Assembly (NCBI GenBank): GCA_025774615.1
Contig: JALGVQ010000138.1
Coordinates: forward strand, 1-8,937
DNA from: a bacterium
Lineage (GTDB): Bacteria > Blakebacterota > Blakebacteria > Blakebacterales > Blakebacteraceae
DNA length: 8,937 bases
Direction: 5' to 3'
The notes below the pieces were generated by a model. It was given only the letters and a program-made list of their open reading frames with translations, did not search any database and was not told the DNA's origin. Made by a program: the position numbers and the translations under genes. Of this stretch, positions 801 to 8,753 are shown in pieces. How positions within the stretch are numbered: position 1 is the stretch's first letter; each line of letters starts with the position of its first letter.

Positions 801-822
801 CGTGTGCCAGATATGTGCCAAA
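801..822 (+). repeat. Arm-like motif A (paired TGTGCCA)
   Basis: Two TGTGCCA direct repeats at 803-809 and 814-820, 11 bp apart, inside a 22-bp block that is identical at 5055-5076 and has one mismatch each at 2699-2720 and 7729-7750. It lies upstream of the tRNA fragment in sites A, B and E. Short direct repeats one helical turn apart beside a tRNA core resemble arm-type integrase or excisionase binding sites; that role is inference. Confidence 0.7.
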
Positions 823-829
823 CTATGTT

Positions 830-933
830 CCGGCAGGGGCCGGTGGTGACCGGTTGGGGCCGATCGCTAACTCGACATAGAGCCTTTGCTGGAGCCGTTT
901 TGTCCGGTACTGACCGGTCAGGACCGGTTGGGG
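830..933 (+). repeat. Phased CCGG(T) 10-bp repeats of site A
   Basis: CCGG-starting decamers at 830, 840 and 850, with a degenerate one (CCGAT) at 860, then a 34-bp interruption, then CCGGT decamers at 904, 914 and 924 running directly into the tRNA fragment at 934. The second block is exactly in 10-bp register. GACCGGTTGGGG occurs in both blocks (848-859 and 922-933), so the longer spacer here (112 bp, against 28 in site B) may come from duplication or an insertion. Direct observation; function unknown. Confidence 0.7.
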
Positions 934-997
934 CATAGTGGCCCGGGCCTGCCTTACACGCAGGAAGTCACTGGTTCGAATCCGGTATCGCCCACCA
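934..997 (+). repeat. tRNA-Val(UAC) 3' fragment, att-like core A
   Basis: The anticodon arm is CCTGC (948-952), loop CTTACAC with anticodon TAC at 955-957, and GCAGG (960-964). A 5-nt variable loop AAGTC follows, then the T arm ACTGG/TTCGAAT/CCGGT (970-986), the acceptor strand ATCGCCC (987-993) and ACCA (994-997). The expected 5' acceptor strand (GGGCGAT) and D arm are absent; CCGGT decamers and the small hairpin GGGC-N6-GCCC (931-944) stand there instead. It is therefore a 3' tRNA remnant, not a working tRNA gene. It differs from copies B and D by one base each over 64 bp. Confidence 0.85.
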
Positions 998-998
998 G

Positions 999-2510
999 TT
1001 ACCATGGTTCGTCACCGAATACATCCATATAGATTGCTTCGATATGCCCTGACTCTTCATCTGTCAAGGAAGCGAATTCGTTCTCCCGACGTCTCTTCGG
1101 GATGGAACCGCCGTTCTGGCGAATAAACATGATGAGATCCCGGACCTGTCGATCGGGCATCTCGACTATCTCCCCGATACGCCGCTCGGCCTCATCCTGC
1201 CGGCGCAGGAAGTCGATCTCCTGGGGCAGGTCGTGTTCGATGGTGCGGGCGACGCACGAGTAGAGAAACTCTGCTTCCTCGGTGCAATCGTAGTACCGAT
1301 ACAAATCGGCTGTCTCGTCCAATAGTGGCCTGGAATGACCTTGCAATGTCGAGCGGTACTCACCGATCCGGTCGAGCATTACTGAAGAGACCGGGAAGAC
1401 CAGGCCTTCCGGCGTAAAGCCGCGCTCTGCCAGAACGTGGTGAATCAGGCACCGATGAAGCCTGCCGTTCCCATCTTGGTGAGGATGGATGTAGATGAAG
1501 CCGAACGCCGTCGCTGTCGCCTGCAGAACCGGATCCAGGTCGCTCTCCGCCATTCGCCTGTCCATAGCGAACAGACCCATCAGCAGAGCAGTCAGATTTT
1601 CAGGCCGTGCTCCGATGAATTCAGGGAGTGGGTTTCCCTCGGGATCACGATCGCCCAAGAATACACCGTCGGGTCGCAGCCCCGGATGGATAAAACGCGT
1701 GTCCTGAATCAGAATACCGTGCAACCGGTTCAATTCGTCGAGTGAGAGCTGATTTCTTCCTGCTTGCATGACTGCCCGGCCCCAACGCTCCAGCCGGTTG
1801 CGTGGCGCGCGCTCACCCTCGATCTCGAAGCTGGCTCGACTGTCGGCGAGCAACAGAAAGCTGGCAGCTCGCGTTATCAGGTGCACGCTGGTCCGGCCGA
1901 TGATCGCGGCAGCTTCAGATGCGAGATCGCGACTGAGATATTTCTCCAGGACATCTGTCCGACGGATGATCGGGCATACCTCTCCGCCACCGAGCAGGTT
2001 ATCCCGGACCCGATATCGTCTTTCGAGGACCGGTTTGCCGGTGAAGTACTTCTCGGGATCGAGCGCATCGATGGCGGTGACCATGGGTGCGTCCTCGATA
2101 TCAAGCGTCGTGCCGGTCAGCAATTCGTAAAGAAACCAGACACGACGGTTGACCGTACCCTTCGGAGTCGCTCTGATGAAACCGGCGATCTTGCCCGGTG
2201 AGATTCCGGTGAAAAGGAGCTTGAGGATCAGCAGGTCAACAGATTCATGCCGGAACGCGAATACCAGGTGTTCGATAACGCTGTTGCCGGGCCAGTAGCG
2301 CTTGTCGAAGAGGGTCCAACCTCCTTCGAGTCGCTGACTGCCTTTGATATATCCCTCTGCAACAGCAGAAGGCTTCCTCACCGGGGCCTGAAGTCCGAAA
2401 TCCTGGACGATTGCCGCCCATCCGGCGAGTCGGGCCCCATCGGGTATGAGGTGTTCCTGAAAGAACTGGGGCTGATCGGATCGCTGTATCATCGGTCGAA
2501 ATTCCCTCAT
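999..2510 (-). CDS. Fic family protein (AMPylator type, class II inhibitory motif)
   Basis: Fic enzymes usually move AMP from ATP onto hydroxyl side chains of target proteins, and many act as toxins or regulators. The core motif is HPHQDGNGR (residues 342-350 counting from the ATG at 2510), with catalytic His342; the usual HPF has a His at position three. The inhibitory motif SFEIEG (227-232) matches (S/T)xxxE(G/N), and lying N-terminal to the core it marks a class II, self-inhibited Fic protein. Residues ~50-210 match the helical N-terminal region of ~500-residue Fic proteins ('RRVWFLYELLTG', 'RVRDNLLGG'), and the tail 'LTDEESGHIE' is typical of them. Start unclear: the ATG at 2510 has no Shine-Dalgarno, while the ATG at 2492 follows GAGGG and would leave every GGTCGAAAT repeat outside the coding region. 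The stop codon lies one base beyond tRNA fragment A. Target unknown. Confidence 0.85.
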   Translation of the reverse strand: MREFRPMIQRSDQPQFFQEHLIPDGARLAGWAAIVQDFGLQAPVRKPSAVAEGYIKGSQRLEGGWTLFDKRYWPGNSVIEHLVFAFRHESVDLLILKLLFTGISPGKIAGFIRATPKGTVNRRVWFLYELLTGTTLDIEDAPMVTAIDALDPEKYFTGKPVLERRYRVRDNLLGGGEVCPIIRRTDVLEKYLSRDLASEAAAIIGRTSVHLITRAASFLLLADSRASFEIEGERAPRNRLERWGRAVMQAGRNQLSLDELNRLHGILIQDTRFIHPGLRPDGVFLGDRDPEGNPLPEFIGARPENLTALLMGLFAMDRRMAESDLDPVLQATATAFGFIYIHPHQDGNGRLHRCLIHHVLAERGFTPEGLVFPVSSVMLDRIGEYRSTLQGHSRPLLDETADLYRYYDCTEEAEFLYSCVARTIEHDLPQEIDFLRRQDEAERRIGEIVEMPDRQVRDLIMFIRQNGGSIPKRRRENEFASLTDEESGHIEAIYMDVFGDEPW

Positions 2511-2626
2511 TCAGGTCGAAATATTGTTAATATTGTATTGATTGGTCGAAATGATGCTTATTATAGTGGTCGAAGTAGATGCAGTAAAGCCGAAAATAAG
2601 GGTAAATCAGGCAGGTAAGTCGAAAT
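2494..2626 (-). repeat. GGTCGAAAT repeat cluster upstream of the Fic gene
   Basis: Exact GGTCGAAAT copies at 2494, 2514 and 2544, GGTCGAAGT at 2568, and weaker relatives at about 2589 (GCCGAAAAT) and 2618 (AGTCGAAAT), all in one direction. Successive spacings are near multiples of ten (20, 30, 24, 21, 29), which puts most copies on roughly one helix face. The cluster surrounds the predicted Fic promoter and reaches its start, so binding by a repressor or autoregulator is likely. Repeats observed; operator role inferred. Confidence 0.6.
2560..2588 (-). promoter_or_regulatory. Predicted sigma70-type promoter for the Fic gene
   Basis: On the minus strand, TTTACT (2588-2583) is separated by 17 bp from a perfect TATAAT (2565-2560), about 50 bp before the first Fic ATG. 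One repeat copy (2568-2576) lies in the spacer and others lie on both sides, a layout suited to repression by occlusion. Confidence 0.5.
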
Positions 2627-2698
2627 ACGTGGCATAAGAAGCTATAACGCTGATACGATACAGGCCTGTGCCCGAGAGATAATTTTCCTCAGTCAGTT

Positions 2699-2720
2699 CG
2701 TGTGCCAGCTATGTGCCAAA
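2699..2720 (+). repeat. Arm-like motif B (paired TGTGCCA)
   Basis: The same 22-bp block as motif A with one change (A to C between the two TGTGCCA copies). It sits just upstream of the Fic regulatory region and 28 bp before tRNA fragment B, the most compact complete site in the window. Confidence 0.7.
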
Positions 2721-2727
2721 GTCTGTT

Positions 2728-2747
2728 CCGGTAGGGGCCGGTGGGGG
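2728..2747 (+). repeat. Two CCGGT decamers of site B
   Basis: CCGGTAGGGG (2728-2737) and CCGGTGGGGG (2738-2747) join the tRNA fragment at 2748 without a gap and in 10-bp register. This is the shortest decamer run of sites A, B and D. Confidence 0.65.
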
Positions 2748-2811
2748 CATAGTAGCCCGGGCCTGCCTTACACGCAGGAAGTCACTGGTTCGAATCCGGT
2801 ATCGCCCACCA
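2748..2811 (+). repeat. tRNA-Val(UAC) 3' fragment, att-like core B
   Basis: Identical to fragment A except for one base in the segment before the anticodon arm (GTAGCC for GTGGCC). Anticodon arm, variable loop, T arm, acceptor 3' strand and CCA are all intact, with no tRNA 5' half. It marks the left edge of the propeller-hydrolase module. Confidence 0.85.
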
Positions 2812-2908
2812 GTTCACTCGTTTGACCTTCCCCCAGTGTTTGTTACATCTCCAGAGCCAGGATGCGCTCGTGAAGTGTCTGGATCCCCGCCCCGGAACAC
2901 TCCTTTTA

Positions 2909-2937
2909 TTGCAGCCGCATCCCATTGATGCGATAAT
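2909..2937 (+). promoter_or_regulatory. Possible promoter with embedded inverted repeat
   Basis: TTGCAG (2909-2914), a 17-bp spacer, then GATAAT (2932-2937, five of six matches to consensus), 75 bp before the chosen hydrolase start. The spacer holds a perfect inverted repeat, CGCATC (2916-2921) and GATGCG (2927-2932), overlapping the -10 box, which could be an operator. The -35 box is weak, so this is tentative. Confidence 0.35.
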
Positions 2938-3001
2938 CAGCCTCCAGTGATGTTCTGGTTAATCAATAGGAGAGAAGGACTAATCTCCTGTCTATCCCGT
3001 C

Positions 3002-3006
3002 GGAGG
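3002..3006 (+). promoter_or_regulatory. Ribosome binding site that sets the hydrolase start
   Basis: GGAGG six bases before the ATG at 3013. It favours that start over the in-frame ATG at 2947, and the resulting protein then begins directly with a signal peptide. Confidence 0.7.
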
Positions 3007-3012
3007 ACCCTG

Positions 3013-5007
3013 ATGCGCAGGACCGTCCCGTTTGCATGTCTGCTGTTCCCGTTCCTGGCCGTACATGCTCTCTGGAGTGGTGGGGAGAGTCCCGGGATGG
3101 AGTCAGGTCAAGCACTGAGCGAGATGGAAGTCCGGAGCGGGGTACTCTCCCGCCTGGAACAGTCCGTCATGGTTCCGGCGAAAGACGGATTCCCGCAATG
3201 GGATCCATCCGGCACCAGAATCGCGTTCCGTTCAGATCGCGATGGAAACGAAGAGATCTATGTCATGGATGCCGATGGTTCCGATGTCATCCGGTTGACG
3301 AACGAGCCCGATTCCGGTGACTACGCTCCGTTCTGGTCCCCTGACGGCACCAGGATCGTCTATAGCGCGCTCAGGGACGGCGTGAACTACATCTGCGTCA
3401 TGAACGCCGACGGTTCTGACAAGACCGATCTCACCGGAGATTCACCGTACGACTGGTTCAAGTCGTGGTCGCCTGATGGATCGAAGATGGTCGACTGGTT
3501 TGAATCGTGGTCGCCTGACGGTTCGAAGATGGTCTTCCAATCGAACCGGGACGGTGACTATGAACTCTACGTCATGAACACGGACGGGACCGGTCTGCTC
3601 AGGCTGACGGATCATCCTGGTTATGACGGCGGTGCTCGCTGGTCACCGGACGGATCCAGGATCGTCTTCAATTCTCAAATCCGGGGTCAGGACCTGGATA
3701 TCTACCTGATGAATCCGGACGGTAGTGGCCGGCTCAGATTGACCGATAATCCCGGTAATGATCAGCAAGCTTCCTGGCTCCCCGATGGGAACAGGATCCT
3801 TTTCCAGTCAGACCGTGACGGACGAACCCAGATCTACATCATGGATCGGGATGGTTCCCACCAGACGAAGCTGACCGATTCCGCATCTGACAACGGATAC
3901 GCCATCCCGTCCCCCGACGGGAAGATGATCGCGTTTCAATCCAACCGGGATGGGGATTCGGAGATCTATACCATGACCGCAGATGGATCCTCCCTGACCA
4001 GGCTGACTGCCGCTCCCGGGAGGGATCGTCAGTACGCCTGGTCCCCTGATTCTCAACAGATTCTCTTCAGCTCGGACCGGGGTCTGGTCTGGATCCTCGA
4101 CGATATCTTCTGCGTCCAGGCTGATGGCAGCCGACTCGTCAACCTGACCGGTAACGACATCATACCCGGAACCGAGATCCGGGATATCCGGTATGGGCCG
4201 TTCGAATCGAATGTCCTGGATCTCTGGCTGGTCGACTCTCCGATCCCGACCCCCCTGGTGATCTTCTACCATGGCGGGGGCTTTCGCGCAGGCGACAAGC
4301 GAGGTAGCATGCTCGCTCCTCTCCTGATCAAGCTGCTGCAAGCCGGTATCTCCGTTGCCGGAGTCAACTACCGGCTGACAGATGTTGCTCCGTATCCGGC
4401 TCAGATGCTCGACTCTGCTCGAGCACTCCAGTTCCTCCGCCATCATGCCCGGGACTACAACATCGACCCCGGTCGGGTCGGTGCCACAGGCGGCTCGGCG
4501 GGTGCCGTCATCTCGATGTGGCTGGCGTTTCATGATGACCTTGCCGACCCGGCCAGCTATGATCCTGTTCTTCGTCAGTCCACCCGGCTATCCGCCCTTG
4601 TGCCCTATGACAGCCCGGCTTCTGTGGATCCCCGGTTCCTCCGGGAATTCTTCGATACGGAGGAGGACCATCCCGCCCTCCTGCAATTCTTCGGCATCAC
4701 AGCGCCGGAAGAGATCCTGGATCCGGATAAGATCATGCTGTTTGAAGAAGCCTCGCCGATCAATCACGTGACGGCAGATGATCCTCCGGTGTTCATGTAT
4801 TTCAACCAGCCGGATCTGCCCTTGCCGCCCGGATGCACGGGCGATCAGTACGTCCACCATCCCGGGCTGGGATTCATCCTCAAGGAAAAACTGGACCAGC
4901 TCGGCATACCGTGCGTTTTCCGCCTGAGGGAGGAGACTCCCGGTGGTACGCCCTTCGACGAATACGTGGCATTCTTTCGAAGACATTTCCGCATGCCGGT
5001 GAAGTGA
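3013..5007 (+). CDS. Exported seven-bladed PD40/TolB-like propeller fused to an alpha/beta hydrolase
   Basis: 664 residues from the ATG at 3013. 'MRR' followed by a hydrophobic stretch to about residue 20 is a signal peptide, so the protein is probably periplasmic or outside the cell. Residues ~58-380 hold seven PD40 blades built on W-SPDG-RIVF, SDRDG and IYVMNADGS motifs, a binding or scaffold propeller. Residues ~395-664 are an esterase domain of the BD-FAE/hormone-sensitive-lipase kind: oxyanion loop HGGG (420-423) and nucleophile elbow GGSAG (Ser495 central). The acid and histidine are less clear; HH at 615-616 ('YVHHPGLGF') is a candidate, since the usual C-terminal His-Gly is not seen. 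Likely role is cleavage of esters or short peptides. An in-frame 42-bp duplication lies between blades two and three. It is the only gene between site B and motif C. Confidence 0.85.
   Translation: MRRTVPFACLLFPFLAVHALWSGGESPGMESGQALSEMEVRSGVLSRLEQSVMVPAKDGFPQWDPSGTRIAFRSDRDGNEEIYVMDADGSDVIRLTNEPDSGDYAPFWSPDGTRIVYSALRDGVNYICVMNADGSDKTDLTGDSPYDWFKSWSPDGSKMVDWFESWSPDGSKMVFQSNRDGDYELYVMNTDGTGLLRLTDHPGYDGGARWSPDGSRIVFNSQIRGQDLDIYLMNPDGSGRLRLTDNPGNDQQASWLPDGNRILFQSDRDGRTQIYIMDRDGSHQTKLTDSASDNGYAIPSPDGKMIAFQSNRDGDSEIYTMTADGSSLTRLTAAPGRDRQYAWSPDSQQILFSSDRGLVWILDDIFCVQADGSRLVNLTGNDIIPGTEIRDIRYGPFESNVLDLWLVDSPIPTPLVIFYHGGGFRAGDKRGSMLAPLLIKLLQAGISVAGVNYRLTDVAPYPAQMLDSARALQFLRHHARDYNIDPGRVGATGGSAGAVISMWLAFHDDLADPASYDPVLRQSTRLSALVPYDSPASVDPRFLREFFDTEEDHPALLQFFGITAPEEILDPDKIMLFEEASPINHVTADDPPVFMYFNQPDLPLPPGCTGDQYVHHPGLGFILKEKLDQLGIPCVFRLREETPGGTPFDEYVAFFRRHFRMPVK
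3451..3534 (+). repeat. 42-bp in-frame tandem duplication in the propeller
   Basis: Units 3451-3492 and 3493-3534 differ at five of 42 bases and encode DWFKSWSPDGSKMV then DWFESWSPDGSKMV. This repeats only the start of a blade rather than a whole blade, giving an extra 14-residue insertion. The divergence argues against an assembly error. Confidence 0.8.
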
Positions 5008-5054
5008 TCGACTGAACGTCTCCCGGAGTGGTGATCTCTGAAAGAGGATGGATC

Positions 5055-5076
5055 CGTGTGCCAGATATGTGCCAAA
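5055..5076 (+). repeat. Arm-like motif C (paired TGTGCCA), no tRNA half
   Basis: Identical over 22 bp to motif A, 47 bp after the hydrolase stop. Faint similarity to the sequence after motif A continues for about 15 bp, then stops. No CCGGT decamer or tRNA fragment follows; the next tRNA fragment is about 2 kb downstream at 7114. Confidence 0.7.
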
Positions 5077-5186
5077 AAATGAATCCAACACGGTTGTTCA
5101 GATACTGGTCCGCGCAGACCTCGTCGCCATTCACGGCAAGTGGTACGGGGAATGTCCTGTGGTTATGCTCCTTTAATCCGCGGTCC

Positions 5187-5215
5187 TTGACATACCTGAC
5201 ACTGCCATGTATAAT
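5187..5215 (+). promoter_or_regulatory. Consensus sigma70 promoter for the PadR operon
   Basis: TTGACA (5187-5192), exactly 17 bp, TATAAT (5210-5215): a perfect match to the housekeeping consensus, with transcription expected to start near 5222. Such a strong promoter ahead of a PadR gene suggests repression. ATGTA occurs at 5207 and again at 5222, and ACAT/ATGT half sites at 5190 and 5207 overlap the promoter, so an operator here is plausible. Confidence 0.75.
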
Positions 5216-5269
5216 GCTTCTATGTACACTCGGATTCGAGTCCATTTGCGCCGAGCGACGGGTGAAATC

Positions 5270-5656
5270 ATGGAGATCAACAAGGACTTGATAGCCGCTT
5301 CCTCGACCCCGATCGTCCTGGCGATCCTGGCCGAAGAGGACAGCTACGGCTACGCCATCCTCAAGCGAGTTCAGGAGTTGTCCGGAGGGCGCATGGAGTG
5401 GACGGACGGGATGCTCTACCCCGTTCTGCATCGGCTCGAGCGGCTCGGCCATGTCGAGGCGCGGTGGGAAGTTGCGGAGAGTGGACGCCGTCGCAAGTAC
5501 TACCGGATCACACCCCGGGGCCGGGCGCAGCTCGCTGAGGAACGCGGGCAGTGGCAAGCGGTGGACGCAACACTACGGGGCATCTGGCAGGCGCTCTGCC
5601 TTCGCGTCCCAGCCAGCCACTCGGCGTCAGCCATACCACTTCCACAGGGAGCCTGA
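5270..5656 (+). CDS. PadR family transcriptional regulator
   Basis: PadR proteins are small winged-helix repressors that bind operators near their own operon and respond to small molecules. From the ATG at 5270 (128 residues) the protein opens with the family-typical 'NKDLIAASSTPIVLAIL', continues with 'DSYGYAILKRVQEL' and the recognition region 'GMLYPVLHRLERLG', and closes the wing with 'GRRRKYYRITPRG' near residue 85. The frame extends up to an ATG at 5207, but that lies inside the -10 box; an ATG at 5222 could only serve as a leaderless start. The last ~20 residues (Ala, Ser, Pro) are not family-typical. The stop is three bases before the membrane-protein gene, so the two form an operon. 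Confidence 0.9.
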   Translation: MEINKDLIAASSTPIVLAILAEEDSYGYAILKRVQELSGGRMEWTDGMLYPVLHRLERLGHVEARWEVAESGRRRKYYRITPRGRAQLAEERGQWQAVDATLRGIWQALCLRVPASHSASAIPLPQGA

Positions 5657-5659
5657 GCG

Positions 5660-7030
5660 ATGCCGGTTCCGGGTGATGCGGTATCGCTTGAGGAGCAGAT
5701 CGACCGATGGCGAAGCTACGTCCGCCGCCGGCAGGCGATCCACTCCGTCGACGTAGCGGAGCTGGAAGACCATCTGCGTGAGCAGGTAGCGGTCCTGGTC
5801 GACGCGGGGCTCGCCACCGATGAAGCGTTCCTGGTGGCAGTGAAGCGCATGGGTGACCTCGACGCCCTCTCACGGGAGTTCGCACGCGAGCACTCTGACC
5901 GCCTCTGGAAGCAACTTGTCGTTGGCCCCTCCGATTCCGAGGAGCCACGAGCGCGGGCCCGAACGGATGCCATCGTCGCCTTCTGTCTTGCGGTGGCGGC
6001 GGCCGTGGTCATCAAAGTGCCGGTGGCCTTCGGGATACAGTTGGACCAGGACGCCGGCTTCTACGCCCGCAATCTGAGTATTTTCGTGTTGCCCCTCCTG
6101 ACCGGTTATTTCGTCTGGAAACGCCGGCTTGACACCAGCACGCTCCGCTGGCTGGCCGTGGCGATCGTCGCGGCGGGCGTATTCGCCAACGTCTATCCAT
6201 TCTCCCCGAGCGGCTACACCGAGGCGCTTACGGCGCTGCACCTGCCTATTGCGCTCTGGCTGGTCGTGGGCATCGCGTACGCGAGCGACCGATGGGGCCA
6301 GGTGGGCGGTCGCATGGACTTCATTCGATTCTCGGGTGAGCTGTTCATTTACTACGTTCTGATCGCCCTCGGCGGGGGCGTCTTCACGGGGTTCATGGGG
6401 ATGATCTTCCAGGCCATTGGAATCGACCTCGAGCCCATCCTCGGGTCGTGGGTGCTGCTGTGCGGAGCGGCCGGGGCCGTCGTGATCGCCTCCTGGCTGG
6501 TGGAGGCCAAGCAAAGCGTGATCGAGAACATGGCGCCCGTGTTGACGCGCCTCTTCACACCCCTTTTCGCCGTCGTACTGGTCACTTTTCTTGGGACCCT
6601 GCTGTGGACCGGACCGGGAGTTGACATCGAGCGAGACGTGCTTATAGCTTTCGACCTGCTCCTGGTGGTGGTCCTTGGCCTTCTGCTCTATTCCGTCTCC
6701 GCCCGGGACCCCCGGTCCCCACCCGGCGCCTTCGATGTAGTGCAGGTTGTGCTGGTGGTCAGCGCGCTATTGGCCGACGCGGTAGCGCTGTGGGCCATCG
6801 CCGCGCGCATCACCGAGTTCGGATTCAGCCCGAATCGCGTGGCCGCCCTGGGTGTGAACTTGATTCTTCTGGTCAATCTGGCATGGTCTGCCGTGCTCTA
6901 CGTGAGGTTCCTGCGCAGGCGAGGCTCGTTCTCGCTCCTCGAACGTTGGCAAACGGATTACCTGCCAGTCTACGCCTTGTGGGCGGCGATCGTCGTGATC
7001 GCCTTTCCACTGGTGTTCGGATACATCTGA
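5660..7030 (+). CDS. Multi-spanning membrane protein with permease prefix domain 1
   Basis: 456 residues. The soluble N terminus (~1-85: 'LEEQIDRWRSYVRRRQ', 'VAELEDHLREQVAVLVDAGLATDEAFLVAVKRMGD') matches permease prefix domain 1 (HAAS-type), usually found on membrane proteins encoded next to PadR regulators and thought to link the two. From about residue 100 to the end there are roughly eleven hydrophobic helices, some broken by Gly/Pro. The segment 'GFSPNRVAALGVNLILLVNLAW' loosely recalls DUF4153-type proteins, at low confidence. There are no ABC ATPase motifs and no partner ATPase, so transport is not shown. With the padR gene immediately upstream it is probably the regulated target, perhaps a response to membrane-active compounds. 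Confidence 0.75.
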   Translation: MPVPGDAVSLEEQIDRWRSYVRRRQAIHSVDVAELEDHLREQVAVLVDAGLATDEAFLVAVKRMGDLDALSREFAREHSDRLWKQLVVGPSDSEEPRARARTDAIVAFCLAVAAAVVIKVPVAFGIQLDQDAGFYARNLSIFVLPLLTGYFVWKRRLDTSTLRWLAVAIVAAGVFANVYPFSPSGYTEALTALHLPIALWLVVGIAYASDRWGQVGGRMDFIRFSGELFIYYVLIALGGGVFTGFMGMIFQAIGIDLEPILGSWVLLCGAAGAVVIASWLVEAKQSVIENMAPVLTRLFTPLFAVVLVTFLGTLLWTGPGVDIERDVLIAFDLLLVVVLGLLLYSVSARDPRSPPGAFDVVQVVLVVSALLADAVALWAIAARITEFGFSPNRVAALGVNLILLVNLAWSAVLYVRFLRRRGSFSLLERWQTDYLPVYALWAAIVVIAFPLVFGYI

Positions 7031-7083
7031 TCGGGTGCCGTTACCCCCGTTTTCCGCACCGGCTTTCACGGATGTGGGCGGGG

Positions 7084-7113
7084 CCGGTCAGGACCGGTTG
7101 GGACCGCCTGGGG
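7084..7113 (+). repeat. Three CCGG-type decamers of site D
   Basis: CCGGTCAGGA (7084), CCGGTTGGGA (7094) and the degenerate CCGCCTGGGG (7104) run into the tRNA fragment at 7114 in strict 10-bp register. The first two nearly match the last two decamers of site A. Confidence 0.65.
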
Positions 7114-7177
7114 CATAGTGGCCCGGGCCTGCCTTACACGCAGGAAGTCACTGGTTCGAATCCGGTATCGCACACCA
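7114..7177 (+). repeat. tRNA-Val(UAC) 3' fragment, att-like core D
   Basis: Identical to fragment A over 64 bp except for one base in the acceptor strand (CGCAC for CGCCC). That change would break an acceptor base pair in a real tRNA, fitting release from tRNA function. No TGTGCCA pair lies upstream within the usual distance. It borders the hicBA module on the left. Confidence 0.85.
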
Positions 7178-7243
7178 GTACCAACGCACTATAGATTCGC
7201 TCGAATTGCTATTCTTCCTTACAATGGAGTCACACAATCAGAG

Positions 7244-7259
7244 ATTCCTTCAAAGGAAT
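7244..7259 (+). promoter_or_regulatory. Inverted repeat covering the hicB ribosome binding site
   Basis: ATTCCTT (7244-7250), CA, AAGGAAT (7253-7259): a perfect 7-bp palindrome whose right arm contains the AAGGA Shine-Dalgarno nine bases before the hicB ATG at 7267. It could be a DNA operator or an RNA hairpin hiding the ribosome binding site. A TACAAT hexamer at 7220-7225 is a possible -10 box upstream, with only a weak -35. Confidence 0.5.
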
Positions 7260-7266
7260 GATGATC

Positions 7267-7473
7267 ATGGATGAACTGATATTCATCGTTAATGAAGCTC
7301 CTGAAGGTGGTTACACTGCTCGAGCCCTTGGGGAATCTATCTTCGCAGAGGCAGATTCGCTTGAAGATCTCCGTGAGGAGATCCGTGAGGCAGTTAAATG
7401 TCATTTTGAAGATGACAGTTCTCCAAAAGTGGTCAGGATCCATTTCGTTCGTGAAGAAATACTTTCGGTATGA
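7267..7473 (+). CDS. hicB: HicB-like antitoxin
   Basis: 68 residues from the ATG at 7267, which has AAGGA nine bases upstream; ATGs at 7258 and 7261 overlap that site and are less likely. The chain is a single short HicB-type fold: 'ELIFIVNEAPEGGYTARALGESIFAEADSLEDLREEIREAVKCHF', with the beta-strand, Gly-Gly-Tyr and acidic-helix pattern of compact HicB antitoxins. There is no C-terminal helix-turn-helix or ribbon-helix-helix domain, so it is the minimal type that neutralises HicA by direct binding. Antitoxin comes first and the frame overlaps hicA by four bases, which fits translational coupling. The pair is the only cargo between tRNA fragments D and E. Confidence 0.8.
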   Translation: MDELIFIVNEAPEGGYTARALGESIFAEADSLEDLREEIREAVKCHFEDDSSPKVVRIHFVREEILSV

Positions 7474-7712
7474 GAATACCTCGGGATCTTTCTGCTCAGG
7501 ACCTCATAACCGCTCTTAAAAAATTGGGTTATGAAGTTACTCGGCAGAAAGGCAGCCATGTGCGACTAACAACAATTGAGGAGGGGGAACATCACCTTAC
7601 TATACCGGTGCATAAGTCACTGAGAATCGGAACACTTGCAGGTATTTTGGGTGATGTGGCAGAACATTATCATATTCCTCGTGGGGAATTACTGCGAAGG
7701 CTATTCAAGTAA
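7470..7712 (+). CDS. hicA: HicA toxin (mRNA interferase family)
   Basis: 80 residues; HicA toxins have a double-stranded-RNA-binding-like fold and cleave mRNA, stopping growth until HicB binds them. The sequence shows the family layout: 'SAQDLITALKKLGYEVTRQKGSHVRL', where His30 in the G-S-H motif is the catalytic residue, then a strand region 'LTIPVHKSLRIGTLAGIL' with the usual PVH-K-(L/I)-GTL pattern. The start ATG overlaps the hicB stop (ATGA). The stop is 16 bp before arm-like motif E, leaving almost no spare DNA, as in integron cassettes. As a toxin-antitoxin pair it may protect the array from loss. Confidence 0.9.
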   Translation: MRIPRDLSAQDLITALKKLGYEVTRQKGSHVRLTTIEEGEHHLTIPVHKSLRIGTLAGILGDVAEHYHIPRGELLRRLFK

Positions 7713-7728
7713 ATTTTCAACATTCTTC

Positions 7729-7750
7729 CGCGTGCCAGATATGTGCCAAA
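7729..7750 (+). repeat. Arm-like motif E
   Basis: Matches motif A at 21 of 22 bases (CGCG for CGTG at the left), so the first TGTGCCA is changed to CGTGCCA. It follows hicA directly and precedes a shortened tRNA fragment. Confidence 0.65.
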
Positions 7751-7764
7751 CCATGTTTTTTTAG

Positions 7765-7809
7765 CTTACACGCAGGAAGTCACTGGCTCGAATCCGGTAT
7801 CGTTCACCA
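7765..7809 (+). repeat. Degenerate tRNA-Val 3' fragment, att-like core E
   Basis: 45 bp corresponding to the anticodon loop through CCA, with three differences from fragment A: one in the T loop (TTCGAAT to CTCGAAT) and two in the acceptor strand (CGCCC to CGTTC). The decamers, the small hairpin and the 5' anticodon stem are missing, leaving only 14 bp between the arm motif and this piece. It appears to be a decayed or deleted site. Confidence 0.75.
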
Positions 7810-7956: not shown

Positions 7957-8388
7957 CTACCTGACTATGAGGACGGGGCAGAGCGCGCGGTGTGCAACAG
8001 CGTTTGAAACGCTCCCCAGGCACAATTCAACTCCCGGACTGTGCCCATGGGTGCCCGTCACCACCAGATCCGCTGTCTGTGCGATAGCGAACTCCACGAT
8101 GTTCTGAGCGGGATTGCCGACCAGGGTCACCTCATGTACCTGCGCGTCCAGATCTCCGAGAACTTTCCTTGTACGTTCCATAACGGATTGAGAAATCTGA
8201 ACAACCCGCTCATCGGAGGCATCCTTCGGGAGTGAAAGCAGATGAGAATAGGTTTCAACGTCGCGAGGCAATGGGAAGACATAGATCAGGAACAGTACCG
8301 TCTCGGCGTCGAACTGCAGGTGTTGAACCGCCCAGGTCACGGCTTTCAGGCTGGCTTCTGAACCGTCGGTTGTGAGGATGCATTTCAT
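7957..8388 (-). CDS. Universal stress protein, UspA family
   Basis: 143 residues, a normal length for a single-domain Usp. UspA proteins are cytoplasmic dimers that support survival under stress; members with the glycine motif bind ATP. The opening 'MKCILTTDGSEASLKAVTWA' carries the conserved Asp8, and the C-terminal signature G-x2-G-x9-G-S is exact (Gly112, Gly115, Gly125-Ser126, in 'VVTGTHGHSPGVELCLGSVS'), so this is an ATP-binding type. The ending 'CPVLIVR' is typical. AAGGA lies upstream of the ATG. It follows the DUF1858 gene in the same direction after 56 bp and is probably co-transcribed with it. Which stress it serves cannot be read from the sequence. Confidence 0.9.
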   Translation of the reverse strand: MKCILTTDGSEASLKAVTWAVQHLQFDAETVLFLIYVFPLPRDVETYSHLLSLPKDASDERVVQISQSVMERTRKVLGDLDAQVHEVTLVGNPAQNIVEFAIAQTADLVVTGTHGHSPGVELCLGSVSNAVAHRALCPVLIVR

Positions 8389-8444
8389 GGTATATTTCCT
8401 TCAGAATCCGAATGTTAGAAGTAGAATACCCACCAGGAGTCCTA

Positions 8445-8666
8445 TCAAATCGGACCCTGGGCCATGTCCATTCTCAGGTCTTTGATCAAGGCCTCCATAT
8501 CCGTGATGCCCTTACTTGCCGCTAACTCTTTGAGTGTACCCCAATATGCTTCCCCGCAGACAATGCAGACAATACCCTTGAATGCCAGAGGACCGATTAA
8601 CTCGGGATATGCTTCGACCAGATCCTCCACAAAAATATCCTCCCTCAGCGGTGGTCGATTGTTCAT
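8445..8666 (-). CDS. DUF1858 / prismane-associated redox disulfide domain protein
   Basis: 73 residues forming one DUF1858-type domain, a small fold often found near hybrid-cluster (prismane) proteins or redox enzymes. Visible are an N-terminal helix ('IFVEDLVEAYPELIGPL'), the motif 'GIVCIVCGE' with Cys34 and Cys37 as C-x2-C, and the helical tail 'TLKELAASKGITDMEALIKDL'. The cysteine pair could form a redox disulfide or bind metal. An AAGGAGA ribosome binding site precedes the ATG. It is the first gene of the leftward operon with the Usp gene, suggesting a link to redox or anaerobic stress; that link is inference. Confidence 0.8.
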   Translation of the reverse strand: MNNRPPLREDIFVEDLVEAYPELIGPLAFKGIVCIVCGEAYWGTLKELAASKGITDMEALIKDLRMDMAQGPI

Positions 8667-8689: not shown

Positions 8690-8753
8690 CGATCTACAAT
8701 TGCTGACGGCTATGCAAGCAACGATCTACAATTGCTGACGGCTATGCAAGCAA
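8690..8753 (-). repeat. Perfect 32-bp tandem repeat upstream of the DUF1858-UspA operon
   Basis: Units 8690-8721 and 8722-8753 are identical, and the next bases (ACGACCT) hint at a faded third. They lie 24 bp upstream of the DUF1858 start, where promoter elements are expected. On the minus strand each unit contains TTGCTT, 17 bp, TGTAGA, a weak promoter-like pair, so the repeat may duplicate a promoter or operator. No coding role is likely. Confidence 0.7.

Follow-up and report, generated by a model that had tools for sequence, protein, structure and literature searches.

Cassettes that target tRNA genes and carry tRNA repeats have been described in the flexible genomic islands of Alteromonas (fGI1; PMC4119200), Candidatus Actinomarinales (PMC7771536) and Methylophilaceae (fGI-2; PMC10872708). 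In Dehalococcoides, tandem ssrA islands are divided by direct repeats of the tmRNA 3' end; 16 islands carry an integration module, and the 15 without one have been suggested to be cis-mobilizable (PMC3146451). Tandem accretion is also known among streptococcal integrative and conjugative elements (ICEs) and integrative and mobilizable elements (IMEs), where att-bounded, integrase-free segments called cis-mobilizable elements (CIMEs) lie beside other elements at one att site (reviewed in PMC5704250). We analyzed an 8,937-bp stretch of DNA from a Blakebacteraceae bacterium (contig JALGVQ010000138.1, referred to here as the window) in which 3' copies of tRNA-Val(UAC) separate unrelated one- or two-gene modules. 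The region belongs among the additive and tandemly accreted islands already described. We read it, with a probability of roughly 0.5, as an additive island consisting of a same-direction row of short cassettes, most of which end in an attachment site for an arm-binding tyrosine integrase.

The region resembles additive flexible islands in its tRNA target gene and in its short cassettes of variable content. In the passages that describe those islands, a tRNA repeat is reported but a shared arm site is not, whereas the repeat of the array described here is 51 bp long, is present at least nine times, and is accompanied by a TGTGCCA pair and decamers at most boundaries. The Dehalococcoides islands involve a serine recombinase and a 20-bp repeat, in contrast to a tyrosine-type site and modules that all lack an integrase. 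CIMEs are decayed larger elements with both attL and attR, but the modules in our array are very short and have mostly attR-like sites only. Its distinctive features are the many short modules, the presence of both arm and core at most boundaries, and a motif that connects it with elements across phyla.

Repeat units in the window and its genome

The window is the entire contig C200 of a metagenome-assembled genome (MAG; G000) of 3.3 Mb that is divided into 324 contigs and is 82% complete. The phylum-level comparison comprised four genomes: G000 itself, a sister species of the same genus (G001), and two genomes from another genus of the same family (G002 and G003). The window contains the following repeat features.

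783–946, + strand: P arm 1, with a TGTGCCA pair at 803–822, CCGG decamers and GGGGCATAGTGGCCCGG
947–997, + strand: core 1, the tRNA-Val(UAC) 3' part (anticodon stem to CCA), which matches the tRNA on contig C52 exactly
2697–2760, + strand: P arm 2, with a TGTGCCA pair at 2701–2720 and a short decamer block
2761–2811, + strand: core 2, with 0 differences from the tRNA 51-mer
5053–5076, + strand: solo arm motif, with a pair at 5057 and no adjacent core
7080–7126, + strand: CCGG decamers and GGGGCATAGTGGCCCGG, with no motif pair directly upstream
7127–7177, + strand: core 3, with 1 difference from the tRNA
7727–7757, + strand: arm motif 4, CGTGCCA-TGTGCCA at 7731, without decamers
7765–7809, + strand: decayed core 4, whose left half is gone and whose homology begins at the anticodon loop

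The tRNA-Val repeats are real and occur far above chance. The original prediction, made from the sequence of the window, had noted same-direction copies of the tRNA-Val(UAC) 3' part and four paired TGTGCCA motifs; both are present, as three near-exact 51-bp cores plus one decayed copy and as pairs at 803, 2701, 5057 and 7731. ARAGORN makes two tRNA calls in the window, neither of which is a true tRNA; the better one scores 38.6 Rfam bits, compared to 70.2 for the real gene. That intact tRNA-Val(UAC), which had been anticipated elsewhere in the genome, lies on the minus strand of C52 (871–948) and is followed by a P' motif. C52 is not joined to C200 or to C283, the other main array contig, in the assembly.

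A complete unit begins with about 20–45 bp of loosely shared sequence, followed by TGTGCCA-N4-TGTGCCA, two direct repeats with an 11-bp period. Next, 3' of the motif pair, come CCGG decamers in varying number (10-bp period) and then GGGGCATAGTGGCCCGG, and the unit ends with the 51-bp core (anticodon stem to CCA) and a G. The core carries inverted half-sites (CCTGC-CTTACAC-GCAGG) with paired arm-type repeats adjacent, and a short GTTAACT-like stub lies 3' of it. Only 1 of 357 core positions deviates across seven intact units, compared to 16 of 287 positions in the flanking arm blocks (Fisher p = 2e-5, for related copies that are not fully independent); long units differ by 10–13% overall. The two decayed cores retain homology only from the anticodon loop CTTACAC onward, and partial copies on C100, on C248 and in G002 likewise break near this loop. 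A crossover in the anticodon loop would fit these break points.

Each boundary had been predicted to contain arm-like and core-like parts. The parts are present, but arms and cores are not matched one for one: C200 has just two complete arm-plus-core units, 803/947 and 2701/2761. A 2-kb PadR module intervenes between arm 5057 and core 7127, and at 7731/7765 there are no CCGG decamers and the core has lost its left half. Successive cores are spaced by 1814, 4366 and 632 bp. Two of these values equal the sizes of the predicted 1814-bp and 632-bp circles, but the 632-bp circle is the weaker prediction because of the incomplete 7731/7765 unit that flanks it. The proposal of a complete attP at each boundary was not borne out. 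Most boundaries are attR-like (P arm plus core, no P' arm). A P' arm beyond the stub occurs only at C52 and at the C283 core 695–745, with the motif 68–69 bp away, and C283:600–899 is the sole full P-core-P' site.

Nine tRNA-Val(UAC) 3' cores and one half copy were found in G000, along with 14 copies of the paired motif (10 exact). They are concentrated on C200 and C283 rather than scattered genome-wide, in agreement with the original prediction. C283 contains five cores and seven motif pairs, all on the minus strand, with an unpaired arm and core at C283:10098. C100, C103 and C248 carry a half core or solo arms. Core orientation is uniform within each of C200 and C283, and the unrelated modules between cores span 0.6–4.4 kb.

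We considered whether the short-read assembly had linked unrelated contigs through their identical tRNA-like repeats, in which case the module order would be unreal. The MAG is in 324 contigs, relatives' contigs break inside the core (G001 C65 starts there and G002 C265 ends there), and the window's last 114 bp equal C103:426–539. However, the flanking arms vary among the copies, the separate genome G002 has one of the boundaries too, and misjoins could reorder modules but not create arm-core units. We regard such an artifact as very improbable.

The TGTGCCA motif in other genomes

A scan of 84,980 species genomes from GTDB with GTGTGCCANNTNTGTGCCAAA yielded 69 stretches. Of 74 cases, 24 are located no more than 400 bp 3' of a tRNA or tmRNA gene, compared to 45 of 1480 random positions (3%). 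Of 77 cases, 7 had a T-arm plus CCA downstream on the same strand (the geometry of the window), 16 had it downstream on the opposite strand, and 6 had it on the same strand but upstream; each arrangement was seen in about 1% of controls. Integrase genes touch or adjoin the motif at several loci, and those tested code for tyrosine integrases, some with a recognized arm-binding domain.

An 11-kb island in Celeribacter naphthalenivorans (L220) consists of tRNA-Val, a motif at +69, an integrase gene, about 10 kb of cargo, a second motif and a 40-bp tRNA repeat. Acidobacteria MAG47 has an island with the same layout at tRNA-Thr. The Celeribacter island resembles our array in its tRNA-Val target, in the motif 69 bp 3' of the tRNA, and in the motif 157 bp before the tRNA repeat, but it is one element that includes an integrase gene next to the tRNA. 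Because integrase-bearing islands elsewhere share this layout and the motif is enriched near tRNA and tmRNA genes, the window boundaries can be identified as arm-plus-core, attR-like integrase sites. Most genomes with the motif carry one to three copies and the maximum is eight (50 genomes), compared to 14 in G000; one count allowed one mismatch and the other two, so the stringencies are not strictly equal.

The survey also recovered short elements in other lineages. In Arenicellales IP29b_bin.88 (L218, contig 14:394000–404000), a 4.3-kb tRNA-Asn element at 2786–7216 has the same geometry: the motif at +61 is followed by one TIR-domain gene (981 aa), a second motif and a perfect 45-bp tRNA repeat, with no integrase inside; a recombinase upstream of the tRNA-Asn appears XerD-like by its C-terminal sequence. 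The alphaproteobacterial single cell AG-907-D22 (L217) has an element of about 1.5 kb at tRNA-Ser (3859–5452) with three small genes, a perfect 45-bp copy of the tRNA-Ser 3' end and an arm motif beside the tRNA; no integrase was seen in the 8 kb examined. The complete WOR-3 chromosome CP070664.1 (L219, L222) has eight motif copies with one mismatch allowed, and no tRNA was found near them in the stretches examined. In Gemmatimonadetes MAGs (L065, L091, L082, L111, L057), the motif occurs with tmRNA genes or short tmRNA-like 3' pieces, and two copies lie 16.5 kb apart on one contig, which suggests ssrA islands of the same class. Four stretches with gammaproteobacterial-type arms (L081, L086, L098, L103) have one more block in common, near GGCAAGCGYNNCAAGTGAYTG and located between the motif and the core; it may be an excisionase site or a site for a host factor. 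In viral contigs, the general motif gave 10 matches and the exact module-specific core and arm patterns gave 0; a local phage source was rejected on the latter result.

Integrase search, relatives and cargo

The absence of an integrase from every module, as originally claimed, was upheld by hidden Markov model and tblastn searches of the array contigs, which returned no integrase or fragment beyond two 19-aa chance-level matches on C103. The array does not match an autonomous tRNA-targeted element (tycheposon, IME or prophage), as no tyrosine recombinase was found inside a tRNA-bounded element. No arm-type integrase was found in the 82%-complete G000 bin, whose recombinases are XerD (C312), XerC (C244) and an IS91-linked enzyme (C245). 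The sister-species recombinases on G001 C400 and C433 have no adjacent motif or tRNA core. The C400 protein (L182) is an IntI-like integron integrase of 346 aa.

This IntI-like integrase, together with the arrangement of one- or two-gene modules in a row, separated by conserved recombination sites as in mobile integrons, could point to an integron with an unusual attC. In contrast to mobile integrons, however, the array has a double-strand tRNA att site. Its units fold no better than shuffles (z = -0.78, -0.14, +0.38 and -0.11), and the nearest G000 recombinase is the IS91-linked one, which scores 209.6 against an integron-integrase cut-off of 265. With no IntI above the curated cut-off in the 82%-complete bin and no attC-like fold, the description of the array as integron-like is not supported, and we give an integron almost no credence.

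We compared the array with its relatives. The sister species G001 matches 94% of a 12-kb housekeeping control contig at 75–78% identity, but most of C200 and C283 has no G001 match, and the window matches only in a universal stress protein block, a 69-bp piece and the cores. The array content therefore differs from that of the sister species, as had been expected. The universal stress protein block (8086–8443, 358 bp) is 98.6% identical in G001, against a background of about 76%, and lies at a contig end there. G002 has a background identity of 69–73%, compared to 90% for a 1.9-kb block of C283 (thioesterase, core, patatin) in which the order is kept and the arm is deleted. This homology stops at C283:13675, the edge of the next arm, and that between C103 and G001 stops at C103:260, just before the arm at 273. 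The same gene order without the repeats, set beforehand as the refuting case, was not seen in relatives among the phylum genomes. Searches at the order, class and phylum levels added nothing, since the phylum comprises only these four genomes.

The comparison also bears on whether the arm-core unit is a dispersed intergenic repeat, similar to a miniature inverted-repeat transposable element, among resident non-cargo genes. The units are intergenic, and solo arms occur on C103, C248 and G001 C464. This explanation is nonetheless improbable, given that the units cluster in a single orientation on C200 and C283, that homology to relatives breaks at arm edges, and that the neighboring genes are mostly absent from G001.

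The genes of the window are listed below.

999–2510, − strand: module 1, Fic-domain protein (Pfam PF02661; PADLOC match to defense candidate PDC-S24)
2947–5007, + strand: module 2, protein with beta-propeller (PD40) and esterase-like (BD-FAE) parts
5207–5656, + strand: module 3, PadR-family regulator
5660–7030, + strand: module 3, membrane protein with no Pfam family
7258–7473, + strand: module 4, small protein with no family match, a putative HicB-like antitoxin by its position beside HicA
7470–7712, + strand: module 4, HicA toxin (Pfam PF07927)
7957–8388, − strand: module 5, universal stress protein
8445–8666, − strand: small DUF1858-like protein, below the Pfam cut-off and absent from the matching G001 stretch

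Constant boundaries between unrelated one- or two-gene modules, the central observation of the original prediction, are thus seen in C200, and more of them lie on C283, whose cargo includes a patatin, pyrroloquinoline quinone-type lipoproteins, a PAS histidine kinase and a flavin adenine dinucleotide oxidoreductase. On C52, a Ser/Thr kinase gene lies 3' of the tRNA. Module GC content is 43–63%, compared to 54–59% in eight sampled G000 contigs, some of which bear solo arms themselves.

Other features lie toward the ends of the window. The Lcl_C-domain gene left of unit 1 (3–686) has an 82% identical copy at G000:C144:14864–15552. A perfect 32-bp tandem duplication occupies 8690–8753. The terminal 114 bp shared with C103 (8824–8937) have a different left neighbor there (a module end and a solo arm); this assembly branch is possibly a population variant of the array end beside a hydrogenase locus.

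Proposed entry, movement and decay of the cassettes

The array would have grown by repeated site-specific integration at the anticodon loop of tRNA-Val(UAC). Each event would have restored the tRNA and left behind an arm-core boundary. The integrase of a helper element would bind the arm pair and the core and recombine at tRNA-Val, so that short circles carrying arm and core could enter and, in principle, leave. Because no cassette has an integrase, an element absent from the recovered genome would supply, or once have supplied, the enzyme in trans. The anatomy of the units gives good support for entry by site-specific integration, and integrase action in trans is plausible. Excision may also occur, and the array may be active at present. 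A broader version, in which the tRNA-derived arm-core sites serve as attC does, a helper integrase shuffles single genes in trans as live non-autonomous cassettes, and related cassettes exist in other phyla, seems unlikely to us.

The main alternative, somewhat less likely than our reading, is that, as in the CIME model, autonomous islands accreted one after another at tRNA-Val and then each lost their integrase and most of their length, leaving the modules as immobile fossils between attR sites. Such accretion has published models, and the partly decayed units, the missing P' arms and the old boundary common to G002 agree with it. CIMEs have both attL and attR; attR-like ends are present here, and the P' (attL-like) arm occurs only at C52 and C283:600–899. 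On the other hand, flanks that differ by about 10% surround a near-invariant core, the array contigs contain no integrase fragment, all modules are just 0.6–4.4 kb, and two blocks look recently exchanged between species. The invariance of the core and the absence of integrase remnants lean toward cassettes moved by a helper integrase.

Several points weigh against our reading of the region as a row of cassettes with integrase sites. Most cores lack the P' arm that lambda-type integrases normally need. Several units are decayed, as shown by the lack of arm-core pairing at 5057/7127 and C283:10098. Since G002 keeps the thioesterase-core-patatin order without the arm, that boundary is either old or moved as a block. 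These three points lean toward accretion and decay. Action in trans rests on the absence of an integrase from a bin that is 82% complete. The 98.6% identical block, being at a G001 contig end, is possibly a cross-assembly of two MAGs from one sample.

If our reading is true, additive islands would gain a specific mechanism open to testing, in which a portable arm-core site of about 110–230 bp could mobilize a nearby gene together with a helper integrase. The arm motif offers an easy way to look for integrase-free cassettes in any genome.

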